Assembly (NCBI GenBank): GCA_017473795.1
Contig: JAFUJE010000130.1
Span: 1-15,537, forward strand
Direction: 5' to 3'
Origin: Clostridia bacterium
GTDB lineage: Bacteria; Bacillota; Clostridia; Christensenellales; UBA1242
DNA length: 15,537 bases
Positions 1,217 to 14,061 of the stretch are shown piece after piece. The translations under genes were made by a program, and so were the position numbers. The number at the start of each line of letters is the position of its first letter. The stretch's first letter is position 1. Under the pieces are notes generated by a model. The model made no database searches and had not been told where the DNA came from. It saw nothing but the letters and a program-made list of their open reading frames with translations.

Positions 1217-2239
1217 TTATTTACCGTATTTTTGATTCCATGCTTCGTTAGTAATTTTACGCATATATTTGATGGTTTCAACTGGATATTCACCCATAGC
1301 AGTTTCTTCCGAAGTCATAACTGCGTCGGTACCGTCGTAAACAGCGTTAGCAACGTCGGTTGTTTCAGCACGGCTTGGACGTGGTTTTTGCATCATATTC
1401 AACATCATTTCGGTTGCCACAACAACAAATTTATTAGCAGCGTTACATTTTCTGATAATTTCTTTTTGTACGGTTGGCAATTTTTCTAATGGATATTCAA
1501 CACCCAAGTCACCACGAGCAACCATAATACCGTCTGCTTCCGCAATAATTTCGTCTAAGTTTTCTACTGCTTGAACGCTTTCAATCTTAGCGATAATTGG
1601 GGTAGTACCGGTAATTTGACGCATTTCACGGATATCTTCTGCTTTGTTAACAAAAGAAGCCGCAATCAAGTCAACTTTTTGTTCTACACCGAATTTCAAA
1701 TCGGCAATATCTTCTGGACGTAAGAATTGTAAGTGGACGTCAACGCCCGGAACAGCCATACTCTTTTTGTCAGCGATTTTACCACCGTTTTCAATTTTCA
1801 AGACAATTTCTTTACCTTTAACTTCTTGAACTTTAGAAACGATTAAACCGTTACAAATTAAAACGGTGTCACCAGGTTTAACATATTTGTATAAATCTGG
1901 GTGAGAAATTGAAACACCTTGTTGATTACCAACACGTTCATCACAGTACAATGAGAAGATGTCGCCTGGTTGAACAGTTACACCACCGTTTTCAAATGTA
2001 CGTAAGCGGATATCTGGACCTTTGGTATCCAACAAAATTTTGATGTCCTTTCCGTATTTTTCATTTACTTCACGAACTCGTGCGAATTTACGACCATGTT
2101 CTTCATGGCTTCCGTGGCTGAAATTACAACGGGCAATGCTCATGCCGGCGTCAGCCAATCCTTTGATGGTTTCTACACTTTCAGAGGCAGGGCCAATGGT
2201 GCAGAGAATTTTGATTTCCTTTTTATTTGTGCTTTCCAT
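1217..2239 (-). CDS. pyk: Pyruvate kinase lacking the C-terminal domain
   Basis: This is the last step of glycolysis: phosphoenolpyruvate plus ADP gives pyruvate plus ATP. The 340-residue product has the (beta/alpha)8 barrel and the inserted B domain (about 78-175). Visible motifs are the N-terminal CTIGPAS, the K+/substrate motif NFSHG (39-43), LLDTKGP (69-75), catalytic-region Lys199 in ASFVNKAED, metal ligands Glu220 (AKIES) and Asp244 (ARGDLG), and PRPSRAE followed by DAVMTSEETA near the end of the barrel. Family members usually have about 470-585 residues. The roughly 120-residue C domain, which carries allosteric effector sites and subunit contacts in characterised enzymes, is absent. 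A terminator follows directly, so this is not a window or frameshift artefact. The ATG at 2239 is chosen because homology starts just after it and a promoter ends 7 bases before it. A longer in-frame start would read through that promoter. Confidence 0.9.
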   Translation of the reverse strand: MESTNKKEIKILCTIGPASESVETIKGLADAGMSIARCNFSHGSHEEHGRKFARVREVNEKYGKDIKILLDTKGPDIRLRTFENGGVTVQPGDIFSLYCDERVGNQQGVSISHPDLYKYVKPGDTVLICNGLIVSKVQEVKGKEIVLKIENGGKIADKKSMAVPGVDVHLQFLRPEDIADLKFGVEQKVDLIAASFVNKAEDIREMRQITGTTPIIAKIESVQAVENLDEIIAEADGIMVARGDLGVEYPLEKLPTVQKEIIRKCNAANKFVVVATEMMLNMMQKPRPSRAETTDVANAVYDGTDAVMTSEETAMGEYPVETIKYMRKITNEAWNQKYGK

Positions 2240-2243
2240 AACA

Positions 2244-2798
2244 TTAATTATAAATAATTTGCAAAATTTTGTCGATTGTTTTTTCCAAATTATCATTAAT
2301 TATCACATGGTCAAAGTGTTCGGCTTCTTTCATACATTCATCATAATCAGCCATACGCACTTTAATATCGGCTAAAGCGTCACCACGGCGGTGTAAACGC
2401 TGTTCTATTTCGTTTTTATCAGCGGTAATAAAAATCGTCGTGACTTGTTTAAAACGTGATTTAAGCGCTTTTACGCCAATTAAATTACAATCTTTTAACG
2501 GTATCTTCTTTTGTGTAAATAACTCGTTAATATATTTTTCACTCATGCCACGTTTTTCGCCATGGCGCATGGTGTATTCAAAAATATCGCCCGAAGCTAC
2601 CATTGCGTCAAATTCTGCATTACTAACAAAATGGTAAGGATTGCCTTGACTTTCGTTAGGACGCATGGCACGGGTTGCCACCGAAACTAATTTAGCAAAA
2701 CGTTCGGGATATCTTTGGGTTAAAGTTCGGATAATTGTATCTTTCCCAGCACCACTGGGACCTTCAATAACGACAATCTTTTGATTAAATTCTTCCAT
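2244..2798 (-). CDS. gmk: Guanylate kinase (divergent)
   Basis: Converts GMP and ATP to GDP and ADP in purine nucleotide metabolism. The 184-residue length is close to the usual 190-210. A P-loop, EGPSGAGKDT, sits at about residues 12-21. The GMP-binding segment follows as SVATRAMRP (38-46) with a NPYHFVS motif, then the EYTMRHG segment and the lid RLHRRG, whose arginines are kept. Two positions are unusual. The common Asn-Tyr-Tyr-Gly element after the histidine reads Glu-Lys-Arg-Gly, and the Ile-Asp-x-Gln-Gly strand reads Cys-Asn-Leu-Ile-Gly, so the aspartate is replaced. It is the best-fitting family, but altered nucleotide selectivity or a related NMP kinase role cannot be excluded. The gene ends 5 bases before the pyk start and contains the pyk promoter in its last codons. 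Confidence 0.78.
   Translation of the reverse strand: MEEFNQKIVVIEGPSGAGKDTIIRTLTQRYPERFAKLVSVATRAMRPNESQGNPYHFVSNAEFDAMVASGDIFEYTMRHGEKRGMSEKYINELFTQKKIPLKDCNLIGVKALKSRFKQVTTIFITADKNEIEQRLHRRGDALADIKVRMADYDECMKEAEHFDHVIINDNLEKTIDKILQIIYN
2247..2275 (-). promoter_or_regulatory. pyk promoter inside the end of gmk; leaderless
   Basis: Read leftward, TCGACA (+ 2270-2275; one mismatch to TTGACA) is 17 bases from TATAAT (+ 2247-2252), and 7 bases then separate the -10 from the ATG at 2239. The whole promoter lies inside gmk; the TATAAT doubles as its last Tyr-Asn codons. No Shine-Dalgarno sequence fits between. Confidence 0.75.
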
Positions 2799-2803
2799 AA
2801 ATT

Positions 2804-2832
2804 ATCTTAGCCTTAAATGTTAATTAAGTCAA
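2804..2832 (-). promoter_or_regulatory. gmk promoter; leaderless
   Basis: Read leftward, TTGACT (+ 2827-2832) is 17 bases from TAAGAT (+ 2804-2809). Only 5 bases separate the -10 from the ATG at 2798, so the transcript should start at or within a base or two of the start codon. Confidence 0.7.
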
Positions 2833-2995
2833 ACTAAGAGCGCACCCCAAAATTATCCTGCTTGATTAAAAAAATATTTACAGCAAAAATGGCTGGCAAG
2901 AAACCAACCACTTAAACACAAAATTTTCTCTTGTTTAAAAATAAAACTTGAAGCCCATAATTTTACTAAACCAACCAAACAACCACACAAGTTAT
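2833..2995. other. Intergenic region between glyS and gmk
   Basis: Apart from the glyS terminator (2885-2913), nothing coding or RNA-like was found here. The part next to glyS (2914-2995) is A/C-rich on the + strand and holds only a weak inverted pair, AACTTG (2946-2951) with CAAGTT (2987-2992). Confidence 0.6.
2885..2913 (-). terminator. Rho-independent terminator of the serS-glyS operon
   Basis: Read leftward, TGGTTGG pairs with CCAGCCA (one G-U pair; + strand arms 2890-2896 and 2904-2910) around a seven-base loop and is followed by five T residues (+ 2885-2889). The stem can be extended through flanking A-U and G-U pairs. It lies about 85 bases past the glyS stop codon. Confidence 0.7.
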
Positions 2996-4414
2996 TTATA
3001 AAATATTTTTTTTCTTATTATAGGCTGTAAATATGTCAGTAACTTTTGTTGGTAATTCCGCAATTTTAACCCGTGTTTGTTCCATGGTATCACGGTCACG
3101 GATTGTGACGGATTCGTCTTCCAATGTATCGTAATCCACGGTGACACATAATGGGGTGCCAATTTCGTCTTGACGGCGGTAACGTTTACCGATTGAGCCG
3201 GCGTCGTCGTAAGTTACATGGAAGTGTTGTTGTAAATCACGGTACAATTTAGTTGCCGTTTCGGTTAAGCCTTTCTTTTGTAACGGTAAAACGCAAATTT
3301 GGTAAGGTGCTAAGTTGGGATTCAATTTTAACACAACACGGGTATCATTTTCCGCCACTTGTTCGGTGTGGTAAGCGTCACACAGAATGGCTAAGAATAA
3401 ACGTTCCAAACCTTGCGAACTTTCGATAACGGTCGGTACAAATTTTTGGTTGGTCATCGGGTCTAAGTATTCCATTGATTTTTTGGATAAGTTTTGGTGA
3501 TTAGTTAAGTCGTGGACGCCACGGTGGTGCGTGCCATTTAATTCACCCCAGCCAAAAGGGAAGTGGTATTCCATGTCGCAAGCGGCTTTGGCGTAGAATA
3601 CCAATTTTTCGTGGTCGTGGAAGCGTAAGTTTTCGGCTTTTACCCCCAAAACATTGGTAACAAAATTCCAAATCTTTTGTTTGTATTTTTCGTAGAAACC
3701 CATAGCGTCGTCGGCGTGACAGAATAATTGGTGTTCCATTTGTTCAAATTCAACCGTTCGGAAAATAAAGTTACCCGGCGTAATTTCGTTACGGAAAGCC
3801 TTACCAATTTGTCCAATCCCGAAAGGGACTTTTAAGCGCATACTGCGTTGAACGTTAGTAAAATTGATAAATTCGCTTTGGGCTGTTTCGGGACGTAAGA
3901 AAATTTGGTCAGTATTATTTTGGGTAACACCCCGGTGTGTTTCAAACATTAAGTTAAATTGACGAATCGGCGTCCAATTAAACTTGCCACATTTCGGACA
4001 GACTAATTTGTGTTCGTTGATGTAGTTTTCTAACGCTTCGTTCGTCCAACCGTCCGCATTAATTTTGTCATCATGGCTTTCAATTAATTTATCCGCACGG
4101 GAACGGGTTTGACAATCTTTACAGTCCATTAAAGGGTCAGAAAAACCGCTGACGTGCCCGCTGGCCACCCAAACATTGCGGTTCATCAAAATCCCACCGT
4201 CTAAGCCCACGCTGTTGTCGTTGGTTGTGACGAACTCACGCCACCATAATTGTTTGATACGGTTCTTTAATTCCACACCTAACGGACCGTAGTCCCAAGT
4301 GTTGGCTAAACCGTCATAAATTTCTGAACCCGGAAAAACAAAGCCCCGGTTTTTACACATCGCAATAATTGTTTCAATCGCAACAGGTTGTGTATGTTGT
4401 TCTGTATTACTCAT
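2996..4414 (-). CDS. glyS: Glycyl-tRNA synthetase, single-chain (alpha2) type
   Basis: Charges tRNA-Gly with glycine in the cytoplasm. The 472 residues match the homodimeric class II enzyme, not the two-gene GlyQ/GlyS type. The N-terminal KNRGFVFPGSEIYDG and TWDYGPLG segments are characteristic. Two Cys pairs, C98/C101 and C139/C142, look like a zinc-binding knuckle. Downstream are RPETAQ (174-179), the motif 2 region RNEITPG (208-214) with EFEQME (222-227), and motif 3 GLERLF (335-340). The anticodon-binding domain occupies roughly residues 368-465. The start is fixed by an AAGGAG ribosome binding site 9 bases upstream that overlaps the serS stop codon. It is the second gene of the serS-glyS operon, and no T-box leader is present. 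Confidence 0.95.
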   Translation of the reverse strand: MSNTEQHTQPVAIETIIAMCKNRGFVFPGSEIYDGLANTWDYGPLGVELKNRIKQLWWREFVTTNDNSVGLDGGILMNRNVWVASGHVSGFSDPLMDCKDCQTRSRADKLIESHDDKINADGWTNEALENYINEHKLVCPKCGKFNWTPIRQFNLMFETHRGVTQNNTDQIFLRPETAQSEFINFTNVQRSMRLKVPFGIGQIGKAFRNEITPGNFIFRTVEFEQMEHQLFCHADDAMGFYEKYKQKIWNFVTNVLGVKAENLRFHDHEKLVFYAKAACDMEYHFPFGWGELNGTHHRGVHDLTNHQNLSKKSMEYLDPMTNQKFVPTVIESSQGLERLFLAILCDAYHTEQVAENDTRVVLKLNPNLAPYQICVLPLQKKGLTETATKLYRDLQQHFHVTYDDAGSIGKRYRRQDEIGTPLCVTVDYDTLEDESVTIRDRDTMEQTRVKIAELPTKVTDIFTAYNKKKNIL

Positions 4415-4423
4415 TTGCTTTTG

Positions 4424-4430
4424 CTCCTTA
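4424..4430 (-). promoter_or_regulatory. glyS ribosome binding site overlapping the serS stop
   Basis: The serS stop codon TAA and the Shine-Dalgarno AAGGAG share bases, forming TAAGGAG, 9 bases before the glyS ATG. The same arrangement joins gyrB to gyrA, suggesting translational coupling inside operons. Confidence 0.8.
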
Positions 4431-5711
4431 CTTCTTCTTTAAAACCGTAATCCCGTGCATATATTTGTGCAGAGCAGCCGGAATATTAACACTGCCGTCT
4501 GCATTTTGGTATTGTTCTAAAATAGCAGGGATTAAACGAGATGTTGCTAAACCCGAACCATTCAAAGTGTGTAACAACACAGTTTTGCCGTCCGTATCTT
4601 TGGTACGAATATTAGCACGACGGGCTTGGTAGTCGGTCGCATTGGAAACCGACGAAACTTCTTTATAGCCTTTCATTGAGGGGATAAAGACTTCGATGTC
4701 GTAAGTTTTGGCCATACTTGCCGAACAATCTCCCGCCGCCAAAGCTGTGGTTTGGAAATGTAAACCTAAGCCTTCCAAAAGTTTTTCGGCGTTACGAACT
4801 AACTCACTGAAGAATTGTGGACTTTGGGCAGCCGCACAGTAAACAAACATTTCAATCTTGTTAAACTGATAGCCACGAATCATACCACGTTCGTCCGTAC
4901 GGTAAGAACCGGCTTCTTTACGGTAGCAGGGGGTGTAACTGAAATATTTAATTGGTAACTGATTTTGGTTAATAATTTCGTCACGGTGTAAGTTTAACAA
5001 AGCTGTTTCTGCCGTTGGTAATAAGAATTTACTTTTCTTCGGGTCTTTATTAAAATCGGTGACAAAGACATCTTCCACAAATTTCGGGAATTCTCCGGCG
5101 GCATAACCGCTTTCCCAATTTAATAAGTGCGGTGGTAAAATAAATTTGTAGCCATTAGCAATGTGAAAATCAATAAAGTAATTTAATAAAGCCCATTCTA
5201 ACATGGCACCAGCGCCGGTATAAACCCAAGTCTTGGCACCGCTTAATTTAGCACCACGTTCGTAGTCAATTAAACCTAAGTTGGTTGCCAAAGTTACATG
5301 GTCTTTCCATTCAAAATCCAAAGCCGGTTTTTTACCAAAAGTGGTGACAACACGGTTTTTTTCTTTTCCGCCTGCCACAACTTCGGGGAGAGGAATATTG
5401 GGTAAAGCCGCTAAATGTTCAAAAATTTTGTCGTTAATTTTGGTTAACTCGGCATCGCCATTAGCAATCTTGTCACCGATAGCTTTCATTTCGGCAATTT
5501 GTTTGGTGGCATCTTTGCCTTCTTTTTTTAACTTAGCAATGATAGCACTGTTTTCGTTACGTTTTTGGCGACGTGCTTCGTTGCGTTGAATTAAATTACG
5601 GCGCAAGTTATCCAACTCAATCACCGTGGTAAAATCAACGTGGCAATCACGTTTCGCCAGTTGTTCTTGTACCCATTGTGGGTTATTGCGGATTAAATTT
5701 ATGTCTAGCAT
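4428..5711 (-). CDS. serS: Seryl-tRNA synthetase
   Basis: Charges tRNA-Ser (and tRNA-Sec where present) with serine. The 427 residues match the usual size. An N-terminal helical hairpin (about 30-100), rich in Lys, Glu and Arg, is the tRNA-binding coiled coil. The class II core follows: TAETALLNLHRDE (233-245), motif 2 around PCYRKEAGSYRTDERG (261-276) with GYQFNKIEMF, then KTYDIEV (335-341), SSVSNATDYQARRANIR (353-369) and motif 3 NGSGLATSR (384-392). An upstream in-frame ATG would add 12 residues but would place the promoter inside the coding sequence. The ATG at 5711 fits both the family N terminus and the -10 spacing. It heads the serS-glyS operon. Confidence 0.95.
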   Translation of the reverse strand: MLDINLIRNNPQWVQEQLAKRDCHVDFTTVIELDNLRRNLIQRNEARRQKRNENSAIIAKLKKEGKDATKQIAEMKAIGDKIANGDAELTKINDKIFEHLAALPNIPLPEVVAGGKEKNRVVTTFGKKPALDFEWKDHVTLATNLGLIDYERGAKLSGAKTWVYTGAGAMLEWALLNYFIDFHIANGYKFILPPHLLNWESGYAAGEFPKFVEDVFVTDFNKDPKKSKFLLPTAETALLNLHRDEIINQNQLPIKYFSYTPCYRKEAGSYRTDERGMIRGYQFNKIEMFVYCAAAQSPQFFSELVRNAEKLLEGLGLHFQTTALAAGDCSASMAKTYDIEVFIPSMKGYKEVSSVSNATDYQARRANIRTKDTDGKTVLLHTLNGSGLATSRLIPAILEQYQNADGSVNIPAALHKYMHGITVLKKK

Positions 5712-5717
5712 ATCCTT

Positions 5718-5747
5718 ATTATACAATAATTCGTGATGGCTCGGCAA
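5718..5747 (-). promoter_or_regulatory. serS promoter; leaderless
   Basis: Read leftward, TTGCCG (+ 5742-5747) is 18 bases from a perfect TATAAT (+ 5718-5723). Six bases separate it from the ATG at 5711. An AGGA sequence falls within those six bases, too close to the start codon to act as a normal Shine-Dalgarno site. Confidence 0.75.
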
Positions 5748-5755
5748 TGGTTTAA

Positions 5756-6481
5756 TTATTCAGCGTCAGTCGTTGGCACGTTAAAAGTCGGTTTTTCTTC
5801 CGGTGTCATAATGGCTTTGATTTCGTCTTTTAATTTTTCTTCGTTGAAAGTGGGGTGTACGTCCGACCAAGTGTAAGTAATTTGGTAATCCGGCGTAATT
5901 TCAAATTGGTCAAATTGTAAGCCGTCCATGTAAGCCAACATCTTAATTGTTGGTTTTAAGAAACGACGACTGCGTTCGGGTAAATTATTGACATATTTTT
6001 CCGATAACGTAATTTTGTAAGGTTTACCTTTATTATCTTGGGTGATAATAATCGCCTTCTTAAATTTAGCCACTTCGGTATTGAAGATGGAAACTTTCAT
6101 TTGGTCGATTTGTTTTTGTTCGGTTTTGCTTAAATTCAACATCAAAGTCGGTTTGATTTTTGCCAACTCGATTTTAATTAAAGGATCCAAAGAATTGTTG
6201 CCAATTTCGGTACGGAAGCGAGCCGAAATATTTGGGAAAATGTTATCAACATCATCTGGCGCAAAATCTGAAGAACGAATGATAATTTCGTGTGTTTTAC
6301 GAATTTTATTGCAGAGTTTTTCTACTTCCCGCATGGTAATGTCGTGAAAAAATAAATTGGTAAAAATGTAAGCCCGTTGTAAAGAATTTTTGACCAATCT
6401 TTTGGTTAATTCACAGCCGATACTGCCGTCTGGCGTCACCTTAAAACTGTGGTTAATCGCTTCACAACCTTGAAAATTCAT
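5756..6481 (-). CDS. Hypothetical protein coupled to dnaN, function unknown
   Basis: The ATG at 6481 overlaps the dnaN stop codon by one base (TAATG), which implies coupled translation with the sliding clamp. A longer in-frame start at 6547 would overlap dnaN by 67 bases and is less likely. The 241-residue product is soluble, with no membrane segment or signal peptide. It has a mixed alpha/beta look: an N-terminal half with several short strands, a Lys/Glu-rich middle (about 120-160) and an acidic, Pro-rich C-terminal tail. No Walker A motif, zinc ligands or nuclease motif could be seen. In many bacteria this slot holds yaaA and recF; neither is encoded here, and the product lacks the RecF P-loop and SMC-like signature. 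I do not recognise the family. Confidence 0.75.
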   Translation of the reverse strand: MNFQGCEAINHSFKVTPDGSIGCELTKRLVKNSLQRAYIFTNLFFHDITMREVEKLCNKIRKTHEIIIRSSDFAPDDVDNIFPNISARFRTEIGNNSLDPLIKIELAKIKPTLMLNLSKTEQKQIDQMKVSIFNTEVAKFKKAIIITQDNKGKPYKITLSEKYVNNLPERSRRFLKPTIKMLAYMDGLQFDQFEITPDYQITYTWSDVHPTFNEEKLKDEIKAIMTPEEKPTFNVPTTDAE

Positions 6482-7586
6482 TAACCTAACCTCACCGGTA
6501 AAACTAAGAATAAATAATCGCCCCGTTTCGCACTGGTAATTACGCAAGGTGCTAACGGTGTTGTAAATGACAATTTAACGAATTCGTCGTTAATTGTGTT
6601 CAAAGCATCGAACATATATTTCGAGTTAAACGCAATCTTAATACTGGTACCGTCTAAGTTGGCAGGTACACGTTCGTTAATTTGACCTTTTTCGTTGTTG
6701 GCAAATAATTCCAAACTCTTATCGGCGGTTGTTAAAGTTAACAAATTGATTTTGTTGGAACCTGATAACAAACCAGCACGACCGACCGAAGCCAAAAGTG
6801 GGGCAGTTTCTACTACCACGCTACAATTAAATTCGGTTGGAATAATTTGACGGTAATTGACAAAGTCGCCGTCAATCAAACGAGAAGCAAAAACCGTGCT
6901 ACCTACGGTAATTTGCACAAATTTTTTATCCACAATCAAGCCGATTTCTTCTTTGTCATCGGTTAACATACGGCGCATTTCTTCCAAAGCACGGCAAGGA
7001 ATAATTAATTTTGCCGAACCGGTCGGACGTACCAAAGGTTTAATGATACGGGCTAAACGGTAACCGTCTAAAGCCACAGCCGTAATCGTGTTATTATTGG
7101 CATCAACATCAAATAAAGCCCCACGCAAAACCGGACGAGCATTGTCTTGTGCGGTAAACGGTGTCGTTTTGTTGATAATCTCACGTAAGTCCGCACTCTT
7201 TAAAAAGAATAATGGTTGGCTTCTAAGTTAATTAAATCAGGATATTCGTTGACTGGCATACAAGAGAAGTTACCATCATTGCCTTCACCGTGTTCAATTA
7301 CTGCCGAAGTATCACTGCTGGTAAAAGTAATTTGACCTTTACCAATCTTGCTAATGTATTCGCAGAACAATTTACCCGGTAACAAAGCACTACCTTCTTG
7401 TTTAACGTCAGCGTGAATTGTTTTTCGGATATACAATTCTAAGTCGGTTGCAAAGAAAGTAACCGTATTTCCTTCCGCTACAATTTTAATACCTTCTAAA
7501 ATTTGGTTAACAGTTTTACTGTTGGTACCGTGCGCCACAATTGCCACAGCACTTTTTAAATCTTCACCATCGCAAATAAATTTCAT
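6481..7586 (-). CDS. dnaN: DNA polymerase III beta subunit (sliding clamp), frameshifted as read
   Basis: DnaN is the ring-shaped processivity clamp of the replicative polymerase. The first 128 codons (7586-7200) give the N-terminal clamp domain, ending in NEYPDLINLEANHYSF and an immediate TAA. Dropping back one base at the T5 run (+ 7202-7206) restores the second and third domains: SADLREIINKTTPFTAQDNA, then LDGYRLA, and the clamp's typical end YLFLVLPVRLG. The joined protein has about 368 residues, the normal length. The lesion is thus one missing T in a homopolymer, or a slip site, in an otherwise intact essential gene. Sequencing or assembly error is the simplest reading; transcriptional or ribosomal slippage is possible. 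It has its own leaderless promoter and overlaps the next gene by one base. Confidence 0.92.
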
Positions 7587-7592
7587 ACTTCA

Positions 7593-7621
7593 ATTATAAC
7601 GGAATTTCGGGGGAGTGTCTA
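7593..7621 (-). promoter_or_regulatory. dnaN promoter; leaderless
   Basis: Read leftward, TAGACA (+ 7616-7621; one mismatch to TTGACA) is 17 bases from a perfect TATAAT (+ 7593-7598). The ATG follows after 6 bases. The -35 overlaps the TAG stop codon of the preceding gene. Confidence 0.8.
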
Positions 7622-8047
7622 TTGCTTTAATTCAACAGCCAACATAAATTTCTCGCCGTTCATGAATTCAATTAAGTAATTGGTAAAGTATGCATTTAAT
7701 TGACTGCCGACAGCGTCTTCCACGTAAGTACGGCATTCGTCCATGTTACGTAACTCTAAACGGTTGAGTTCGGTGCGGTTTTCTTCGCCGTAACAGTAGT
7801 CATGTTGTACGACATAACGCAAAGTATCGATGTTCTGCACTTTGGCTTCTGTCTGTACCTGCGGTAAAGTGTCCCGTGCCACTTTGGGAGCGGTCACCGC
7901 AGCCACAGTTTGGTCGGACAAGTTAATTAATAACGTATCCCCGTGACGTTCGACTTTGTTAGTAATTTCGTTTTTCATCATAGATTGTAAGAAATCGACC
8001 ACAAAGGTTGGTTGTGTACTGTCATGTACTTCTTGAGTTTTGTTCAT
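7619..8047 (-). CDS. Hypothetical protein between dnaA and dnaN, function unknown
   Basis: The product is a 142-residue acidic soluble protein with no signal peptide or membrane segment. The ATG at 8047 is preferred over an upstream ATG at 8128 because a perfect -10 ends 6 bases before it, the spacing seen at the other first genes here. The extra upstream residues also read as low-information sequence across repeated promoter elements. The N-terminal part (about 12-60) is helix then strands. The C-terminal half has a Tyr-Cys-Tyr-Gly-Glu-Glu segment and an Arg/Glu-rich helix, ending in strands (EFMNGEKFMLAVELKQ). No known motif was recognised. dnaA and dnaN are usually adjacent or separated by little in bacteria, so an extra independently promoted gene here is uncommon. 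It is the only gene in the window ending in TAG. Confidence 0.65.
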   Translation of the reverse strand: MNKTQEVHDSTQPTFVVDFLQSMMKNEITNKVERHGDTLLINLSDQTVAAVTAPKVARDTLPQVQTEAKVQNIDTLRYVVQHDYCYGEENRTELNRLELRNMDECRTYVEDAVGSQLNAYFTNYLIEFMNGEKFMLAVELKQ

Positions 8048-8053
8048 GTCTTT

Positions 8054-8082
8054 ATTATAGTCTAAAGCCAAAACGTATCCAA
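8054..8082 (-). promoter_or_regulatory. Promoter of the dnaA-dnaN intergenic gene; leaderless
   Basis: Read leftward, TTGGAT (+ 8077-8082) is 17 bases from a perfect TATAAT (+ 8054-8059), and 6 bases lead to the ATG at 8047. The -35 is poor (3 of 6), so an activator or the upstream repeat pair at 8102-8118 may matter. Confidence 0.6.
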
Positions 8083-8101
8083 CCGAAATCGTTTTACATT
8101 T

Positions 8102-8118
8102 TTCGACATTATTCGACA
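8102..8118. repeat. Tandem TTCGACA motif, 10-bp spacing, downstream of dnaA
   Basis: TTCGACA occurs at 8102-8108 and again at 8112-8118, exactly one helical turn apart, 20-36 bases upstream of the -35 of the next gene. A third intergenic copy is at 9568-9574 upstream of rpmH. The arrangement suggests a protein-binding site, either an origin/DnaA-type site or a promoter operator. This is inference from spacing and location only. Confidence 0.4.
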
Positions 8119-8138
8119 AGACTAACATGACCCGCTTT

Positions 8139-9500
8139 TTATTTATCTAACTGTTTTAAGATATCTTCAACTGCCGTTTTTAGTTTGTGGTCGGTATCCA
8201 TTAAATTGGCAATTTTATCACGGGAATAAATCACCGAAGCGTGTGTGCGTCCGCCTAAAATTTCGCCAATCTCGGTTAAAGGTACATCTTTCAAACGTTC
8301 GGTTAAGAGGTAAGCGGTGACCATGCGGGCATCGGCTAGTTTTTCGGTACGACGTTTACCGGTAATTTCGTCCGGGGTCACACTGAAGTAAGCGGCGACA
8401 GTCGCAATCACACGGGCAGCGGTATCACCAACCCGGGCGTTTTCTTCATCACCCGAATTATCCGCCAAAGCCAAAGCACAGTCTTCGATTGTCGGAATCG
8501 TGTGACCGTTTAATTCGGCGTAGACAATAATCTTGATTAAGTGACCTTCCATGTCACGAATATTTTCGTTAATTTTGTTAGAATATTCCGCAATGTAGGA
8601 CGCCACTTCATTGGATAAGTATTTATCTTCCAAAGCCGCCTTCTTTTGCAAAATAGCAGTACGCATTTCAATGTCGGGGTTGCGGATATCTTGGAAAATA
8701 CCACTTTTTAAGCGGGATTGTAAACGTTCGGACAAAGTTGCAATTTCGTTCGGGTGGCGGTCACTGGTTAACACAATTTGGCGTTGGTGTTCAAATAAGT
8801 CGTTAAACGTGTGGAAAAATTCTTCCTGTGTGGCTTGCTTGCTGGCTAATTCTTGCACGTCATCAATTAATAAAACATCAACGTTACGGTATTTTTCTCG
8901 GAACGCACCAAAGTCACCTTTCTGTTTGATAACATTAACGTAATCGTCCGTAAATTTTTCAATCGTGGTTAAAACCAAACGACTGGCAGGATTTTCTTCT
9001 AATATATGATTAGCAATCGCATTTAATAAGTGGGTCTTACCCAAACCCGAACGGCCGTAAATAAATAACGGATTAATTTTTTTGCCGGGATGTTTGGCTA
9101 CAAATTCCGCCATGGCGGCGACTTCTTGGTTAGATTTACCCACGATAAAATTAGCAAAAGTCTGTTGTGGGTTAATGTTATTATTGTAGATAATTGGTTC
9201 TGGTGTTGGTACTTCGGGGGTAGGGTTGTTGCGTGCATCACGACGTTCTTTTTCAACCGCATCAATGATTTCCACTTTTTCCACTAACGGAGCCACGGCT
9301 TTAATTGCGTAGTCAATGTGCGGGAAGTGTCGTTCGTTGCGGGCGTAGTTTGCGTCACGAGTTGACATCGCAGTCAAAATAAAAGTCCCGTCTTCAAAAG
9401 CTTCAGGCATTAACGGTTGAATATAAAGGTCAAAAGAAATACTGCTGACATTGTTTTCAATAATCGGTAGGGCTTGTTTCCAAATTTCATTCACGTCCAT
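8139..9500 (-). CDS. dnaA: Chromosomal replication initiator DnaA
   Basis: DnaA is the AAA+ ATPase that binds oriC, melts it and loads the helicase. The 453-residue length is normal. Domain I occupies residues 1-75 and a Pro/Asn-rich linker about 90-112. The ATPase core carries Walker A GRSGLGKTH (149-157), Walker B LLIDDVQ (210-216), sensor I LTSDRHP (244-250), the arginine-finger box around LSERLQSRLKSG (256-267) and sensor II RDMEG (315-319). The C-terminal DNA-binding domain has the signature GGRTHASVIYS (416-426). The usual form is GGRDHTTV(I/L)HA, so the Asp and both Thr that contact the DnaA box are changed while His is kept. This predicts altered DNA-site preference. The start is fixed by homology (MDVNEIWKQ) and by its promoter. 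Confidence 0.96.
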   Translation of the reverse strand: MDVNEIWKQALPIIENNVSSISFDLYIQPLMPEAFEDGTFILTAMSTRDANYARNERHFPHIDYAIKAVAPLVEKVEIIDAVEKERRDARNNPTPEVPTPEPIIYNNNINPQQTFANFIVGKSNQEVAAMAEFVAKHPGKKINPLFIYGRSGLGKTHLLNAIANHILEENPASRLVLTTIEKFTDDYVNVIKQKGDFGAFREKYRNVDVLLIDDVQELASKQATQEEFFHTFNDLFEHQRQIVLTSDRHPNEIATLSERLQSRLKSGIFQDIRNPDIEMRTAILQKKAALEDKYLSNEVASYIAEYSNKINENIRDMEGHLIKIIVYAELNGHTIPTIEDCALALADNSGDEENARVGDTAARVIATVAAYFSVTPDEITGKRRTEKLADARMVTAYLLTERLKDVPLTEIGEILGGRTHASVIYSRDKIANLMDTDHKLKTAVEDILKQLDK

Positions 9501-9509
9501 GATACCAAT

Positions 9510-9538
9510 AGACTAACACGAAAAGGCGTTTTTGTAAA
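9510..9538 (-). promoter_or_regulatory. dnaA promoter; near-leaderless
   Basis: Read leftward, TTTACA (+ 9533-9538; one mismatch) is 17 bases from TAGTCT (+ 9510-9515; three matches of six, weak). Nine bases separate the -10 from the ATG at 9500 with no Shine-Dalgarno sequence. Confidence 0.5.
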
Positions 9539-9588
9539 TCATTGCTTGTCCTATATATAAGACAAACTTCGACACCAAAAAGTTAAGG

Positions 9589-9617
9589 TTGACGACGGCG
9601 GTAGGCTGTGTTAAAAT
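9589..9617 (+). promoter_or_regulatory. rpmH promoter; leaderless, near consensus
   Basis: TTGACG (9589-9594) is 17 bases from TAAAAT (9612-9617), each with one mismatch to consensus. The ATG at 9625 follows after 7 bases. This is among the strongest-looking promoters in the window, fitting a ribosomal protein gene. Confidence 0.85.
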
Positions 9618-9624
9618 GCAATCT

Positions 9625-9762
9625 ATGAAAAGAACTTGGCAACCTAGTAAAGTTAAACGTCGTCGTACAGTTGGTTTCCGTAAACGTATGAAAACCGCTG
9701 CTGGACGCAATGTATTACGCCGTCGTCGTGCACGTGGTCGTAAACGTTTAACCACCAAATAA
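9625..9762 (+). CDS. rpmH: Large ribosomal subunit protein bL34
   Basis: The product is a 45-residue, extremely basic protein. It opens with the family signature Met-Lys-Arg-Thr-Trp-Gln-Pro-Ser-Lys, has the central GFRKRMKT and ends in [17 protein letters not shown]34 binds 23S rRNA and typically has 44-47 residues. The gene lies first on the rightward side of the origin, next to rnpA, as in most bacteria. It starts 7 bases after the -10, so it has no leader and no Shine-Dalgarno site, which is notable for one of the most highly expressed proteins in a cell. It ends one base before the rnpA start. Confidence 0.97.
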
Positions 9763-9763
9763 T

Positions 9764-10096
9764 ATGTTACCGGTACGGTACCGCTTAAAGAAGCGTAAAA
9801 CATTTAACTATTTACACCAACACGGAAAGCGCCAAAATGGTACTTATGTGGTGGTGTATTTTTGTACTGCTGCGCATTTGAAAGTGGGTTTCAGTGCCAG
9901 TAAGAAAGTCGGTAATAGTGTGGTGCGTCACCGTAGCGCTCGTTTGATGCGGGAAGCCATGCGTCCGTTGTTATCTCGGGTTAATCCCCGTACAAATTTA
10001 ATTGTGGTGGCTAAGCCCGACTTGCCCAAACAACATCTCTTATATATTACATTGGATTTGGAAAACACTTTGAAAAAAGCCGGACTTATGTTATAA
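9764..10096 (+). CDS. rnpA: Ribonuclease P protein component
   Basis: This is the protein cofactor of RNase P, which matures tRNA 5' ends with the catalytic RNA. The 110-residue basic protein has the family's N-terminal RLKKRKTF and the central GFSASKKVGNSVVRHRSARLM segment (42-62). In the usual RNR motif the middle Asn is His56, while Arg55, Arg57, Arg60 and Arg63 are retained. One base separates it from the rpmH stop (TAATATG), and no Shine-Dalgarno is visible, so it probably depends on re-initiation after rpmH. Its last codons contain the yidC -10 element. Confidence 0.93.
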   Translation: MLPVRYRLKKRKTFNYLHQHGKRQNGTYVVVYFCTAAHLKVGFSASKKVGNSVVRHRSARLMREAMRPLLSRVNPRTNLIVVAKPDLPKQHLLYITLDLENTLKKAGLML

Positions 10097-10097
10097 T
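10070..10097 (+). promoter_or_regulatory. yidC promoter inside the end of rnpA; very short leader
   Basis: TTGAAA (10070-10075) is 16 bases from a perfect TATAAT (10092-10097). The ATG at 10109 is 11 bases further, so the leader would be only a few bases and lacks a Shine-Dalgarno site. The -10 overlaps the rnpA stop codon. Confidence 0.65.
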
Positions 10098-10108
10098 TCT
10101 AACTAATT

Positions 10109-11236
10109 ATGAATATTCAGTTTCCGGCCGGTGATGGCATTCAAGGTTTTGTTTATTGGTTACTCGAACAAATTATGGGGTGGGGTTGGGTCTCCTACGG
10201 TTTCGCCATCTTCTTTTTTACATTGTTTATTAAGTTGATGTTGTCACCTTTGGATTTTTTCAACCGCTTTTTTTCCCGTCGTACCCAAATTAAACAACAA
10301 GCCTTGGCTGGTGAATTGGCAGATATTGAAAAAATCTACAAAAATGACCCGATTGGTTTGACCCGTGCTCGTCAAGCGTTATACCAAAAAAACGGCGTTG
10401 GCGGTATGGGTGGCGCTTTGATTTCTTTGGTGAGCGTGATTGTAACCATGGGGGTCTTCTTCCAAGTCATGGGTGCTTTGAGTAATATCTCTAACCAAAA
10501 TATGCATTACCAATACGAACAACTGCAAGGCGTTTATCGTACTTATGTTGCGGATAAAGATGCAAACAACTTGACCGACGACCAAAAAACCGAACTTGGT
10601 ACTTTATTAAACCAAAAATACGCAGATACCCAAATTTCGTTCGGTTGGATTAAAAACATCTGGCAACCGGACAGCCCGATGGCCAGTGCCGGTATGTCGG
10701 CTGATGCTTATAACAATACATTGGCTAAAGAAGAACAACTCGACGAAGCCGGTAAAGCCGAATACAACACGATTTACAGTTATATCGCAGTTACAAAACA
10801 ACCCAACGGTTTCTTTATCTTGGCTATTTTGTCGGCGGTAACCATTTTTGTTTCCATGAAAGTTAACAGCCTGATGCAAAAACGTGCGGCACCAAAAAAA
10901 ACCGAAGTGAAAAAAGAAGAACCGATTATCACTTATTCGCTGCGTGACGCTAAACAACAAGGCATGGAAGAAAAACCTGTCGTTGACCCCGCACAAATGG
11001 GGAAGATGATGTCTTGGATTATGCCGATTATCTACGTATTATTTGCGACCATGCAAACTTCGGCGTTTGCCATCTATATGATTGCGTCGTCTTTAGTTTC
11101 GACCGTTATTTCGGTAAGTTTTTCGTTCTTGATTGACTTGATTTTGAAAAACATGAAGAAGCCGGAAATTACCAAAGATTTCGATGCGAAAATTATTAAC
11201 CCGCATGCGAAGTATTTCAAAGGAGGAAAAAAATGA
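10109..11236 (+). CDS. yidC: Membrane protein insertase YidC/Oxa1 family
   Basis: Inserts and folds membrane proteins, alone or with Sec. There are 375 residues and five membrane segments at about 28-48, 103-123, 234-252, 301-316 and 319-347, the core Oxa1 fold. A positively charged cytoplasmic hairpin (FFSRRTQIKQQ onward, 54-97) follows the first helix, as in the family. There is no lipoprotein signal, unlike many Gram-positive YidC proteins. Two regions are larger than in the roughly 260-residue Gram-positive type: an outside loop of about 110 residues (124-232), acidic with many Asn, Gln and Tyr, and a Lys/Glu-rich cytoplasmic loop (253-298). It ends in a basic tail. The stop overlaps the jag start (ATGA). 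Confidence 0.92.
   Translation: MNIQFPAGDGIQGFVYWLLEQIMGWGWVSYGFAIFFFTLFIKLMLSPLDFFNRFFSRRTQIKQQALAGELADIEKIYKNDPIGLTRARQALYQKNGVGGMGGALISLVSVIVTMGVFFQVMGALSNISNQNMHYQYEQLQGVYRTYVADKDANNLTDDQKTELGTLLNQKYADTQISFGWIKNIWQPDSPMASAGMSADAYNNTLAKEEQLDEAGKAEYNTIYSYIAVTKQPNGFFILAILSAVTIFVSMKVNSLMQKRAAPKKTEVKKEEPIITYSLRDAKQQGMEEKPVVDPAQMGKMMSWIMPIIYVLFATMQTSAFAIYMIASSLVSTVISVSFSFLIDLILKNMKKPEITKDFDAKIINPHAKYFKGGKK
11220..11226 (+). promoter_or_regulatory. jag ribosome binding site
   Basis: A strong AAGGAGG sits 6 bases before the jag ATG and within the last codons of yidC. It contrasts with the absence of such a site before the first genes of operons. Confidence 0.9.
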
Positions 11237-12024
11237 AAGAAACAATCGTAAGTGCGAAAACCGTAGACGAAGCGATTACAAAAGGGTGTGCCGAATTAGG
11301 TGTCGGTATTGACGAAGTCGATTTTGAAATTGTCGACGAAGGTGGTATGTTCCGTAAGATGCAAGTTAAAATCACGGTAAAAAGCGAACCAGTCGCCGAA
11401 GTTGCTCCGGTGGCTGAAACCGTAGTTGCGGAAGAAAAAACTGTAGCCCCTGCCGAACCTGTTGTCCAAGTGCAAAAAGGTAAAGTCGAAGAATTTGAAA
11501 TTGGCGGTAAATCCAAAACTGATAAGCCAGCCAAAGCGCCACGCAAAGTCACCGAATTTGACCCGAATTGTCCGAAGTTCACCAAATCTTTGGCTTTTGC
11601 GGAAGAGTTCTTTAAATTAATTGGCGACAACTTAACTGTAACTACTTCACACGATGACCAAGAATTTATCATAGCAGTGGACGGCGCAGATGTGGCTCGT
11701 TTGATTGGTAAAAATGGTCACACGATGGCTGCCATTAACACCATTATCCAATCCATTGCGATTAATACTCACAGTGATGAATCACGCCGTGTTTTTGTGG
11801 ATATTGGCAATTACCGTGCAAAACGTAAAGAGTACTTAATCGACTTGGCGAAACGCAAAGCCGAACAAGTAAAAACTACGGGGCGCTCGGTGCGTTTGAA
11901 ACCCATGCCGGCTCGAGAACGTGTGATTGTGCATTTAACTTTGCAAGATATGGAAGGAATCATTACGCAAAGTGAAGGCACCGAACCAAACCGTTATTTA
12001 GTGATTAAACCAGGGGCAAGATAA
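11233..12024 (+). CDS. jag: RNA-binding protein Jag/KhpB (KH-R3H)
   Basis: Jag/KhpB proteins bind RNA and in characterised Gram-positive bacteria affect cell elongation and division. The 263 residues divide into a Jag-N domain (1-50, ending near GGMFRKMQVKITV), an acidic Ala/Val/Glu/Pro linker (51-115), a KH domain (about 120-195) with the GxxG loop GKNG at 159-162, and a C-terminal R3H domain (about 205-263) with RERVIVH (228-234). The order matches the full-length family. The start lies inside the yidC stop codon with a strong RBS, so it is coupled to yidC, the common pairing. A terminator overlaps its stop codon. Confidence 0.93.
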   Translation: MKETIVSAKTVDEAITKGCAELGVGIDEVDFEIVDEGGMFRKMQVKITVKSEPVAEVAPVAETVVAEEKTVAPAEPVVQVQKGKVEEFEIGGKSKTDKPAKAPRKVTEFDPNCPKFTKSLAFAEEFFKLIGDNLTVTTSHDDQEFIIAVDGADVARLIGKNGHTMAAINTIIQSIAINTHSDESRRVFVDIGNYRAKRKEYLIDLAKRKAEQVKTTGRSVRLKPMPARERVIVHLTLQDMEGIITQSEGTEPNRYLVIKPGAR

Positions 12025-12034
12025 GCCCCTTTTT
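12013..12034 (+). terminator. Rho-independent terminator of yidC-jag
   Basis: GGGGC (12013-12017) pairs with GCCCC (12025-12029) around a seven-base loop containing the jag TAA, then five T residues (12030-12034). It separates the yidC-jag unit from gyrB. Confidence 0.85.
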
Positions 12035-12050
12035 GATGCTTATTTTCACG

Positions 12051-12074
12051 CCTATATATATAAGAAGTTGTCGC
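12051..12074. other. AT-rich TATATATAAGA element resembling the one upstream of rpmH
   Basis: CCTATATATATAAGA (12051-12065) is followed by TTGTCG (12068-12073). The dnaA-rpmH region has CCTATATATAAGA (9550-9562) followed by TTCGACA (9568-9574), that is, the same AT element with a TGTCG/CGACA motif a few bases on. It may be an origin or regulatory element shared by the two intergenic regions. Confidence 0.35.
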
Positions 12075-12081
12075 AAATACG

Positions 12082-12111
12082 TTGCATTTGGGGTGTCTAA
12101 TATGTTATAAT
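12082..12111 (+). promoter_or_regulatory. gyrB promoter; leaderless
   Basis: TTGCAT (12082-12087) is 18 bases from a perfect TATAAT (12106-12111). Eight bases then lead to the ATG at 12120. There is no Shine-Dalgarno sequence. Confidence 0.75.
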
Positions 12112-12119
12112 TATGTATT

Positions 12120-14057
12120 ATGAGTAATGAAAAAATCGGGCAGAAAAAAACTGCTGCAAGCACAAATTATGAAGCGAAAGACATTACCGTTTTGGAAGGT
12201 TTGGACCCTGTTCGTAAACGTCCTGGTATGTACATCGGCTCGACCGATACCCACGGTTTACACCACTTAATTACCGAGGTTGTTGATAACAGTGTGGACG
12301 AAGCTTTAGCGGGTTATTGTACCGAAATTACGGTAACCATCGAACGTGATGGTTCAATCTCGGTTTTGGATAACGGACGTGGTATTCCGACCGGTATTCA
12401 CCCGACCGAAAAGATTTCGGCAGTGCAGTTGGTTTTAACCAAACTACACGCTGGTGGTAAATTCGGCAAAGGCGGTTATTCTATCTCGGGTGGTTTGCAC
12501 GGGGTTGGTGTTTCCGTCGTTAATGCTTTGTCGGAATGGTTGGAAGTTGAAGTTTATCAAAATGGTAAAATTCACCACCAAACCTACAACCGTGGCGTTC
12601 CACAAGCACCATTACGTGAAACTGGCAAAACAGATAAACACGGTACCAAAGTTACGTTCTATCCTGATGCGGAAATTTTTGACACGATTGAATTTAACTA
12701 CGAAACTATGAAAGTTCGTCTGCGTGAGTTGGCGTTCTTAAACAAAGGCTTGGTTATCAAATGTGCTGACTTGCGTCCGGGTCGTGAACATAAAGACACT
12801 TTCTGCTATAAAGGCGGTATCAAAGAGTTCGTTGAAAGTTTGAATAAAGGTAAAGAATTGGTTATCCCAGATATTATCTATGTTCACAAGAAAAATAAAA
12901 ACAACGAAGTGGACGTTGCTTTCCAATGGAACGACGGCTACAGCGAAAACATTCACACTTATGCCAACAACATTAACACCCAAGAAGGTGGTGTGCATTT
13001 AATCGGTTTCCGTAATGCTTTGGCGAAAGCCATTAACGACCACGGTCACAAAGCCAATTTAATTAAAGAAAACGACAAGTTGTCGATTGAAGACGTTTTG
13101 GAAGGTGTGGTTGCGATTATTTCGGTTAAATTGGAAAACCCACAATTTGAAGGTCAAACGAAAACTAAATTAGGTAACGCTTATATGCGTGGGGAAGTGG
13201 AAAAAGCCGTTCAAGAAAAATTCGGCGAATTCTTGGAAGAAAATCCGAAAGCGGCTAAAGAATTAATTTTGAAATGTCAAACCGCACGTAATGCTCGTGA
13301 AGCCGCTCGCCGTGCCAAAGATTTGGTACACCGTAAAGGCGTCTTAGAAAATACGACCTTGCCGGGTAAATTGGCTGACTGTACCGAACGTGACCCGAAA
13401 TTCTGCGAAATCTTTATCGTCGAGGGTGACAGTGCGGGCGGTACGGCGAAGCAAGGGCGTGACCGTCGTTTCCAAGCCATTTTGCCGTTGCGTGGTAAAA
13501 TTTTGAACGTTGAAAAAGCCCGTTTGGCTCGTTTCTTGTAAAGTGAAACCATTAAAAATATGATTACGGCTTTTGGTTGTGGTATTCAGGAAGACTTTGA
13601 TATTACCCGTTTACGTTATCACAAAATTATTACGATGTCCGATGCGGACGTGGATGGTAGCCACATTCGTATCTTGTTGCTAACTTTCTTGTACCGTTTC
13701 ATGCGTCCGTTAATTGAAGGCGGTTACGTTTATGCGGCACAACCACCGTTGTACAAAATTACCCGTGGTGGCGAAGAATTATACGCTTACAGTGATGCCG
13801 AGTTGGAACAAATTACCGGCAAGGGTGGTCGTGGTAAAGCTAACGTACAACGTTACAAAGGTTTGGGTGAAATGAACGCCGAACAATTATGGGAAACTAC
13901 CATGAATCCGGCTAACCGTACATTAGTTCAAATTACTTTGGAAGACGCTTTTGCGGCAGACGAAATCTTCTCAACATTGATGGGTGAAAAACCCGAATTA
14001 CGTCGTGAATACATTGAACGTAATGCGGCTAACTTCACACAGGATTTGGATATTTAA
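12120..14057 (+). CDS. gyrB: DNA gyrase subunit B, interrupted by an in-frame TAA
   Basis: This is the ATPase subunit of DNA gyrase, which introduces negative supercoils. The frame has 645 codons before its final stop, the usual length, but codon 474 is TAA (13539-13541). Before it are the GHKL ATPase motifs, Asn57 in [17 protein letters not shown] (84-90) and GGLHGVG (124-130), and the first TOPRIM motif EGDSAGG (from 435). After it, in the same frame, are MITAFGCGI, the metal-binding DADVDGSH (from 508) and [15 protein letters not shown]. The TAA falls where relatives have a variable residue between Leu and Ser/Asn, so one base change from a sense codon explains it. Without readthrough the first product lacks the second metal motif and would be inactive. 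gyrA follows through a TAAGGAG overlap. Confidence 0.93.
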
Positions 14058-14061
14058 GGAG
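14055..14061 (+). promoter_or_regulatory. gyrA ribosome binding site overlapping the gyrB stop
   Basis: The gyrB stop codon and AAGGAG share bases (TAAGGAG), 5 bases before the gyrA ATG. It matches the serS-glyS junction and indicates a coupled gyrBA operon. Confidence 0.85.

Follow-up and report, generated by a model that had tools for sequence, protein, structure and literature searches.

The 15,537-nucleotide (nt) stretch analyzed here (the window; contig JAFUJE010000130.1 of assembly GCA_017473795.1, C119 in our numbering) belongs to a metagenome-assembled genome (MAG) of an uncultured Clostridia bacterium with a small genome, from an order that we take to be Christensenellales (GTDB), and carries, among others, the genes gmk, pyk, serS, dnaN, dnaA, rpmH, yidC and gyrB. 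Promoters placed immediately upstream of start codons, in the window and throughout the MAG, indicate with a probability of about 0.9 that this organism relies on genome-wide leaderless or near-leaderless transcription from sigma-70 promoters close to the AUG. The anatomy and positions of these promoters, their conservation and their near-exclusion from Shine-Dalgarno (SD) sequences are direct observations.

Promoters adjacent to start codons across the genome

The MAG comprises 660,066 bases in 139 contigs and is 78% complete with 2.8% contamination; the genome-wide tests cover 89 contigs including the window, i.e. 547,774 bases. Gene calling by codon usage alone, blind to promoters and SD sequences, yielded 551 genes, of which 487 were used after exclusion of 64 that were without a start or had too little upstream sequence. 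An earlier note on the window, based on the nucleotide sequence, had proposed a genome-wide histogram of the distance between TATAAT and the start codon, and this histogram contains the peak: an exact TATAAT ends at positions −6 to −9 in 38 of the 487 genes, whereas six equally wide control bins from the same genome average 3.2 (Poisson p ~ 1 × 10−27). The hexamer ends at −6, −7, −8 and −9 in 4, 17, 11 and 6 genes, respectively, and at any other position up to −45 in 0 to 3 genes. When one mismatch is allowed, there are 112 matches at −6 to −9, against a control mean of 34.8.

A logo was built from 100 genes without an SD that were picked and aligned by the −10 hexamer alone. Counted from the end of the hexamer, it shows T, T and G at −29 to −27 (frequencies 0.77, 0.56 and 0.47), an A-rich stretch (A-tract) from −38 to −34 and the TG of an extended −10 at −9/−8; the best match to TTGACA (no more than two mismatches) lies at a spacing of 17 in 31 and of 18 in 10 of the 100 genes. 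Because the −35 element, the A-tract and the TG emerge without having been selected for, the boxes near the ATG are sigma-70 promoters, and this logo is the strongest argument for that identification.

With a generic promoter score, whose threshold is passed by 0.14% of random positions, a promoter ending 5 to 10 nt before the start was detected in 105 of the 487 genes (the background rate predicts about 4), hereafter the leaderless class. The most frequent gap between the end of the −10 and the start codon is 7 nt, found in 38 of the 105 genes. Start codons in this class are 100 ATG, 5 GTG and 0 TTG, compared to 341 ATG, 18 GTG and 23 TTG among the other genes. Among divergent genes, 58 of 116 have a promoter match in the last 80 nt, and the best match lies 4–11 nt from the start in 38 of these, at 12–20 nt in 4, beyond 20 nt in 15 and closer in 1. 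Over all 116 divergent starts, 40 promoter matches fall in the two 3-nt bins located 6–11 nt upstream, and the remaining bins contain 0 to 4 matches each, with the exception of the first bin within the gene, which has 6.

Other loci were examined in the same manner. In 23 named Bacilli and Clostridia loci (of 80; 253 genes), there were 0 exact matches against 0.8 and 3 near matches against 14 in the control bins; thus, in named Firmicutes loci, with a GC content of 42%, positions −6 to −9 are depleted in TATAAT-like boxes. Two further sets gave mixed results that go against a simple picture: 23 additional dnaA loci of the family had 6 exact matches vs 1.5, but 11 vs 14.3 with one mismatch, and 12 Clostridia MAG loci had 6 exact matches vs 2.7 and 8 near matches vs 17.2.

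Gene position and Shine-Dalgarno sequences

Gene position was tested without a promoter-based definition of first genes, by comparing divergent genes with genes starting no more than 20 nt behind a same-strand gene (close-packed genes), and an SD was recorded when a 4-nt SD core was present. Leaderless promoters are significantly more frequent in divergent than in close-packed genes (38/116 vs 16/182; Fisher p = 4 × 10−7), and the SD core shows the opposite distribution (19/116 vs 112/182; p = 5 × 10−15). The two signals coincide in only 4 of the 487 genes; 101 of the 105 leaderless genes have no SD core. Given that many close-packed (56/182) and divergent (60/116) genes carry neither signal, the position rule is a strong tendency rather than a law; a leaderless promoter without an SD was found in 14 of the 182 close-packed genes.

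The bias of leaderless promoters toward first genes and the prevalence of SD sequences inside operons, as claimed in the earlier note, are both borne out by these counts. The confinement of SD sequences to operon interiors is contradicted by the 19 divergent genes that have one, and the operon-first label attached to nine genes of the window turned out to be partly circular: only dnaA and rpmH among them are divergent, and, by coordinates, the preceding same-strand gene ends 4 nt before pyk and 12 nt before yidC. As they are sited in the 3′ end of the upstream gene, the pyk and yidC promoters would be internal promoters.

Nine promoters of the window

In a base-by-base check of the window, all nine promoters reported 5 to 11 bases before an ATG were found at the gaps given (Table 1). 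Their −35-like hexamers, placed by the earlier note at 16–18 bases from the −10, lie at 17 or 18 in every case, and the −10 hexamers of pyk, serS, the 142-amino-acid (aa) gene, dnaN, yidC and gyrB are perfect TATAAT, accounting for six of the 10 occurrences of this hexamer on both strands of the window. The AAGGAG-type sites described for glyS, jag and gyrA are also real. Two of the nine are weak points. The −10 of gmk has two mismatches, and the aligned start in G005, another genome of the genus, has no such promoter; for yidC, the gap of 11 nt would imply a leader of about 5 nt.

Table 1 Promoters and Shine-Dalgarno sites in the window.
Feature	Position	Strand	Motif	Gap to ATG	Remarks
gmk promoter	2804..2832	−	TTGACT-17-TAAGAT	5 nt (ATG 2798)	
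pyk promoter	2247..2275	−	TCGACA-17-TATAAT	7 nt (ATG 2239)	within gmk 3′ end; G005 layout same
serS promoter	5718..5747	−	TTGCCG-18-TATAAT	6 nt (ATG 5711)	G005: gap same, flanks diverged
dnaN promoter	7593..7621	−	TAGACA-17-TATAAT	6 nt (ATG 7586)	G005 layout same
142-aa gene promoter	8054..8082	−	TTGGAT-17-TATAAT	6 nt (ATG 8047)	
dnaA promoter	9510..9538	−	TTTACA-17-TAGTCT	9 nt (ATG 9500)	
rpmH promoter	9589..9617	+	TTGACG-17-TAAAAT	7 nt (ATG 9625)	
yidC promoter	10069..10097	+	TTTGAA-17-TATAAT	11 nt (ATG 10109)	extended −10 TG; overlaps rnpA end
gyrB promoter	12082..12111	+	TTGCAT-18-TATAAT	8 nt (ATG 12120)	extended −10 TG
glyS SD	4424..4430	−	TAAGGAG		operon-internal
jag SD	11221..11226	+	AGGAGG		operon-internal; AAGGAGG kept in 7 aligned congeners
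gyrA SD	14056..14061	+	AAGGAG		operon-internal; kept in G005

Conservation in the genus, family and order

Conservation was assessed in loci of 9 other genomes of the genus obtained by a yidC search (yidC of G003 is in pieces) and in the corresponding stretch of G005. In yidC, the −10 lies 6–12 nt from the ATG in all 9 congeners, as TATAAT or as TATCAT (G001) or TATAGT (G005). The gyrB −10 is kept in the 4 congeners with a compared start, with TACAAT in G001. For dnaA, TTTACA is found in 6 of 7 congeners, and a −10-like hexamer is located 7–12 nt upstream of the ATG in 7; pyk, serS and dnaN have exactly the same gap in G005. The surrounding sequence varies between congeners while the near-leaderless spacing stays. 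In G015 and G023, from neighboring genera, yidC has an SD in place of the promoter.

In a dnaA tree of 91 rows, the window, G005, G023, G012, G015 and G079 form a clade with a support of 100/100. Around this clade lie the remaining family rows in the tree and named MAGs carrying a Christensenella or Clostridia label; among named DnaA proteins, the closest show about 41% identity along the entire protein. For whole genomes, we used a spacing measure that is blind to gene starts, comparing counts of TATAATN{5,8}ATG with those of the shifted pattern TATAATN{13,16}ATG. The former are in excess in 10 of 10 genomes of the genus (pooled, 1085 vs 658); the source genome (G000) alone has 73 vs 37 (p = 4 × 10−4), which fails the Bonferroni correction in the 200-genome set of the order. 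Within the family, 6 of 35 genomes (G001, G003, G005, G015, G023 and G027) pass p < 0.01/35; G012, a member of the clade, does not pass by itself (81 vs 51, p = 0.006), and G079, also in the clade, was left out of these counts. In the family, this excess distinguishes one supported clade, made up of four genera. Other genomes, such as G010 (145 vs 175), have no excess. A reversed-pattern control was dropped as misleading and replaced by the shifted spacing because the apparent excess that it gave in G010 (145 vs 23) vanished with the shifted pattern. In G032, the difference runs in the opposite direction (162 vs 251, p = 7 × 10−6), showing that counts vary beyond the assumption of the binomial test, so that these p values are too small.

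In the order set, 3 of 200 single genomes pass the Bonferroni correction, none is significant in reverse, and the median ratio is 1.08. When genomes are pooled, 6 of 103 genera pass, namely g96 of family f15, g123 of f32, g104 of f3, g99 of f19, g31 of f6 and g82 of f17. These are candidates only, because the measure is blind to gene starts.

Components of translation initiation

The 3′ ends of 16S rRNA in G003, G005 and G023 read GGATCACCTCCTTTT and contain CCTCCT, so that the anti-SD is intact in these three relatives; a 16S gene was not found in G000. Multi-domain rpsA, encoding ribosomal protein S1, had no match in 10 genomes of the genus, G012, G023 and G027. It is also absent from relatives without the spacing signature (G010) and is present, along with the signature, in G015; loss of S1 as the cause was therefore rejected. 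Multi-domain rpsA seems to be lost in many genera of the family (f1, G000–G034), whereas each of 24 genomes sampled from as many other families of the order has a multi-domain S1 match among the matches listed. A match to initiation factor 3 was obtained in 16 of 20 genomes; the four without it (G000, G004, G007 and G077) are at most 83% complete, so that there is no case for its loss. For bS21, a motif search gave no match in the 89 contigs.

Proposed mechanism and alternatives

About one fifth of the genes, and most first genes with a recognizable promoter, would be transcribed from a sigma-70 promoter whose −10 ends 6–9 bases before the start. Transcription normally begins about 7 bases past the −10. 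Combined with the modal gap of 7 nt, this spacing would place +1 on the A of the AUG, such that RNA polymerase would produce mRNAs with the 5′ end at this A or with a few leader bases. Initiation on these mRNAs would proceed without SD pairing, the 5′-terminal AUG being recognized, as in the literature, by 70S ribosomes or by initiation factor 2 with initiator tRNA. The downstream genes of operons would mostly depend on SD pairing with 16S rRNA that has an intact anti-SD. Both the transcription start points and the route of initiation are inferred.

Several points weigh against genome-wide leaderless transcription. The start points on which it depends are themselves predictions, as are the start codons, which come from a codon score, and dnaA and yidC would have leaders of about 2–5 nt. 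Furthermore, in 15 of the 58 divergent genes with a promoter match, the best match lies more than 20 nt upstream, 210 of the 487 genes show neither signal at the thresholds used, so that the system covers part of the genome, and the tests extend to 83% of the bases of the MAG.

The alternative that fares best, although we consider it unlikely, is that the TATAAT boxes close to the ATG act as secondary promoters, with the main mRNAs starting upstream or reading through, and thus carrying leaders. Such an arrangement is compatible with the short distances of pyk and yidC from the preceding genes and with the divergent genes whose best promoter lies beyond 20 nt, but no other upstream position stands out in divergent genes, and nearly the entire leaderless class lacks the SD on which leadered mRNAs would rely.

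It is less probable still that start codons were called too far upstream and that the real starts lie downstream, behind a leader and an SD, in which case the mRNAs would be ordinary. The prediction of starts from codon usage alone leaves room for such errors; however, an in-frame start preceded by an SD no more than 90 nt downstream is no more common in leaderless genes (8/101) than in SD genes (18/172) or the rest (23/210), so that mis-calling does not explain the peak. In addition, dnaA and gyrB start at the same ATG in the congeners compared, dnaN does so in G005, and the yidC start aligns in 8 of 9 congeners. Finally, an origin of the pattern in AT-rich composition or a mixed bin, without selection, is largely refuted and very improbable: the MAG is indeed fragmented, incomplete and slightly contaminated, and AT-rich loci of the family also show exact TATAAT near starts (6 vs 1.5), but the peak is absent from control bins and shifted spacings of the same genome, the spacing excess recurs in all 10 genomes of the genus, and the named Firmicutes loci are depleted.

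Other genes of the window

At the start of rnpA, inside the rpmH operon, neither an SD nor a promoter was found. This start lies 1 nt past the rpmH stop (window 9760–9766), and the two genes are equally close in congeners; because rnpA adjoins the rpmH stop without a signal of its own, its translation is likely coupled to that of rpmH. The dnaN gene (window 6481–7586) is split into a 128-aa frame followed by 215 aa in a different frame, with a single 368-aa frame in G005; the split is probably an assembly or read error. Similarly, gyrB (window 12120–14057) is split into frames of 473 and 165 aa, likely through an indel error. The 142-aa gene (window 7619–8047), located between dnaA and dnaN, has a strong leaderless promoter of its own, and its extended 169-aa frame gave only a Pfam match below threshold. 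Between dnaN and serS, a gene of about 241 aa (window 5756–6481) overlaps the dnaN stop through TAATG; a Pfam search with its longer frame gave no match.

Discussion

In the excerpts cited here, Zheng et al. (2011, BMC Genomics 12:361; PMC3160421) report leaderless genes in 56 of 209 Firmicutes genomes, at a mean of 4.2% (2.4–16.6), concentrated in Lactobacillales and Mycoplasma, and hold that leaderless initiation is possible for proximal genes only, distal ones usually needing an SD. The genes described here resemble the TA-led genes of those excerpts in the TANNNT/TATAAT motif whose first T lies some 12 bp before the start codon, in the TG extension, found there in several low-GC genomes, and in the combination of proximal leaderless with distal SD-led genes; as in the TA-led class, the −10 is enriched at a fixed distance of about 10–12 bp from the start codon, the SD is absent and first genes are favored. 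In contrast to the genomes covered by the excerpts, the present lineage is clostridial and affiliated with Christensenella, and about 21% of its called genes are leaderless, as counted with a different method. This is a known kind of system in a new lineage; the sorting by operon position that the earlier note considered notable was already known from that paper.

According to the part of PMC9581028 that describes GeneMarkS-2 (Lomsadze et al. 2018), 21.6% of bacterial species are predicted to have leaderless mRNAs, which make up as much as 40% of transcripts. The present genome is like the leaderless class defined there in being mixed, with promoters at leaderless genes and SD sequences at others; the difference is that a generic promoter score was used here, and the clade is not named in that part. 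In Mollicutes, excerpts of PMC4014445 give 18% leaderless mRNAs on average and repeated loss of S1. A reduced Firmicutes genome, leaderless genes and S1 loss are shared with that group, but the class differs, and S1 loss here does not track the signature. In three strains of solventogenic Clostridia, transcription start maps, as excerpted from PMC9045289, show only about 2–3% leaderless transcripts and a peak of 5′ untranslated regions at 32 nt, although these strains are likewise Clostridia. Unlike SD-independent initiation on leadered mRNAs of the Bacteroidetes type, there is no general lack of SD sequences here, as the close-packed genes demonstrate. A literature search on leaderless initiation in Christensenellales found no paper, and among the papers listed in other searches there was no report for this lineage. 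The mechanism was already known; what is added is the lineage, the level reached within Firmicutes (with a different method) and a possibly repeated occurrence in a single order.

A broader scenario, which we offer tentatively and at somewhat less than even odds, is that leaderless initiation was gained several times in one clostridial order: at the base of the four-genus clade with its reduced genomes, and perhaps independently both in g19, another genus of the family, and in members of six further families. In part of the clade it would coexist with loss of multi-domain S1, and it would represent a second Firmicutes route, parallel to that of Mollicutes, to ribosomes relying on leaderless first cistrons.

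These results would put leaderless initiation on a large scale into a small clostridial clade that was not expected to have it, the three mapped Clostridia of PMC9045289 showing only about 2–3%. Sister genera that seem to have or to lack the signature offer a natural comparison of the changes required, namely promoter placement, SD loss and S1, and start-codon prediction in these MAGs should include promoter models. Given that, in the cited part of PMC9581028, some antibiotics are reported to block initiation on leadered mRNAs while sparing leaderless ones, drug response could differ.

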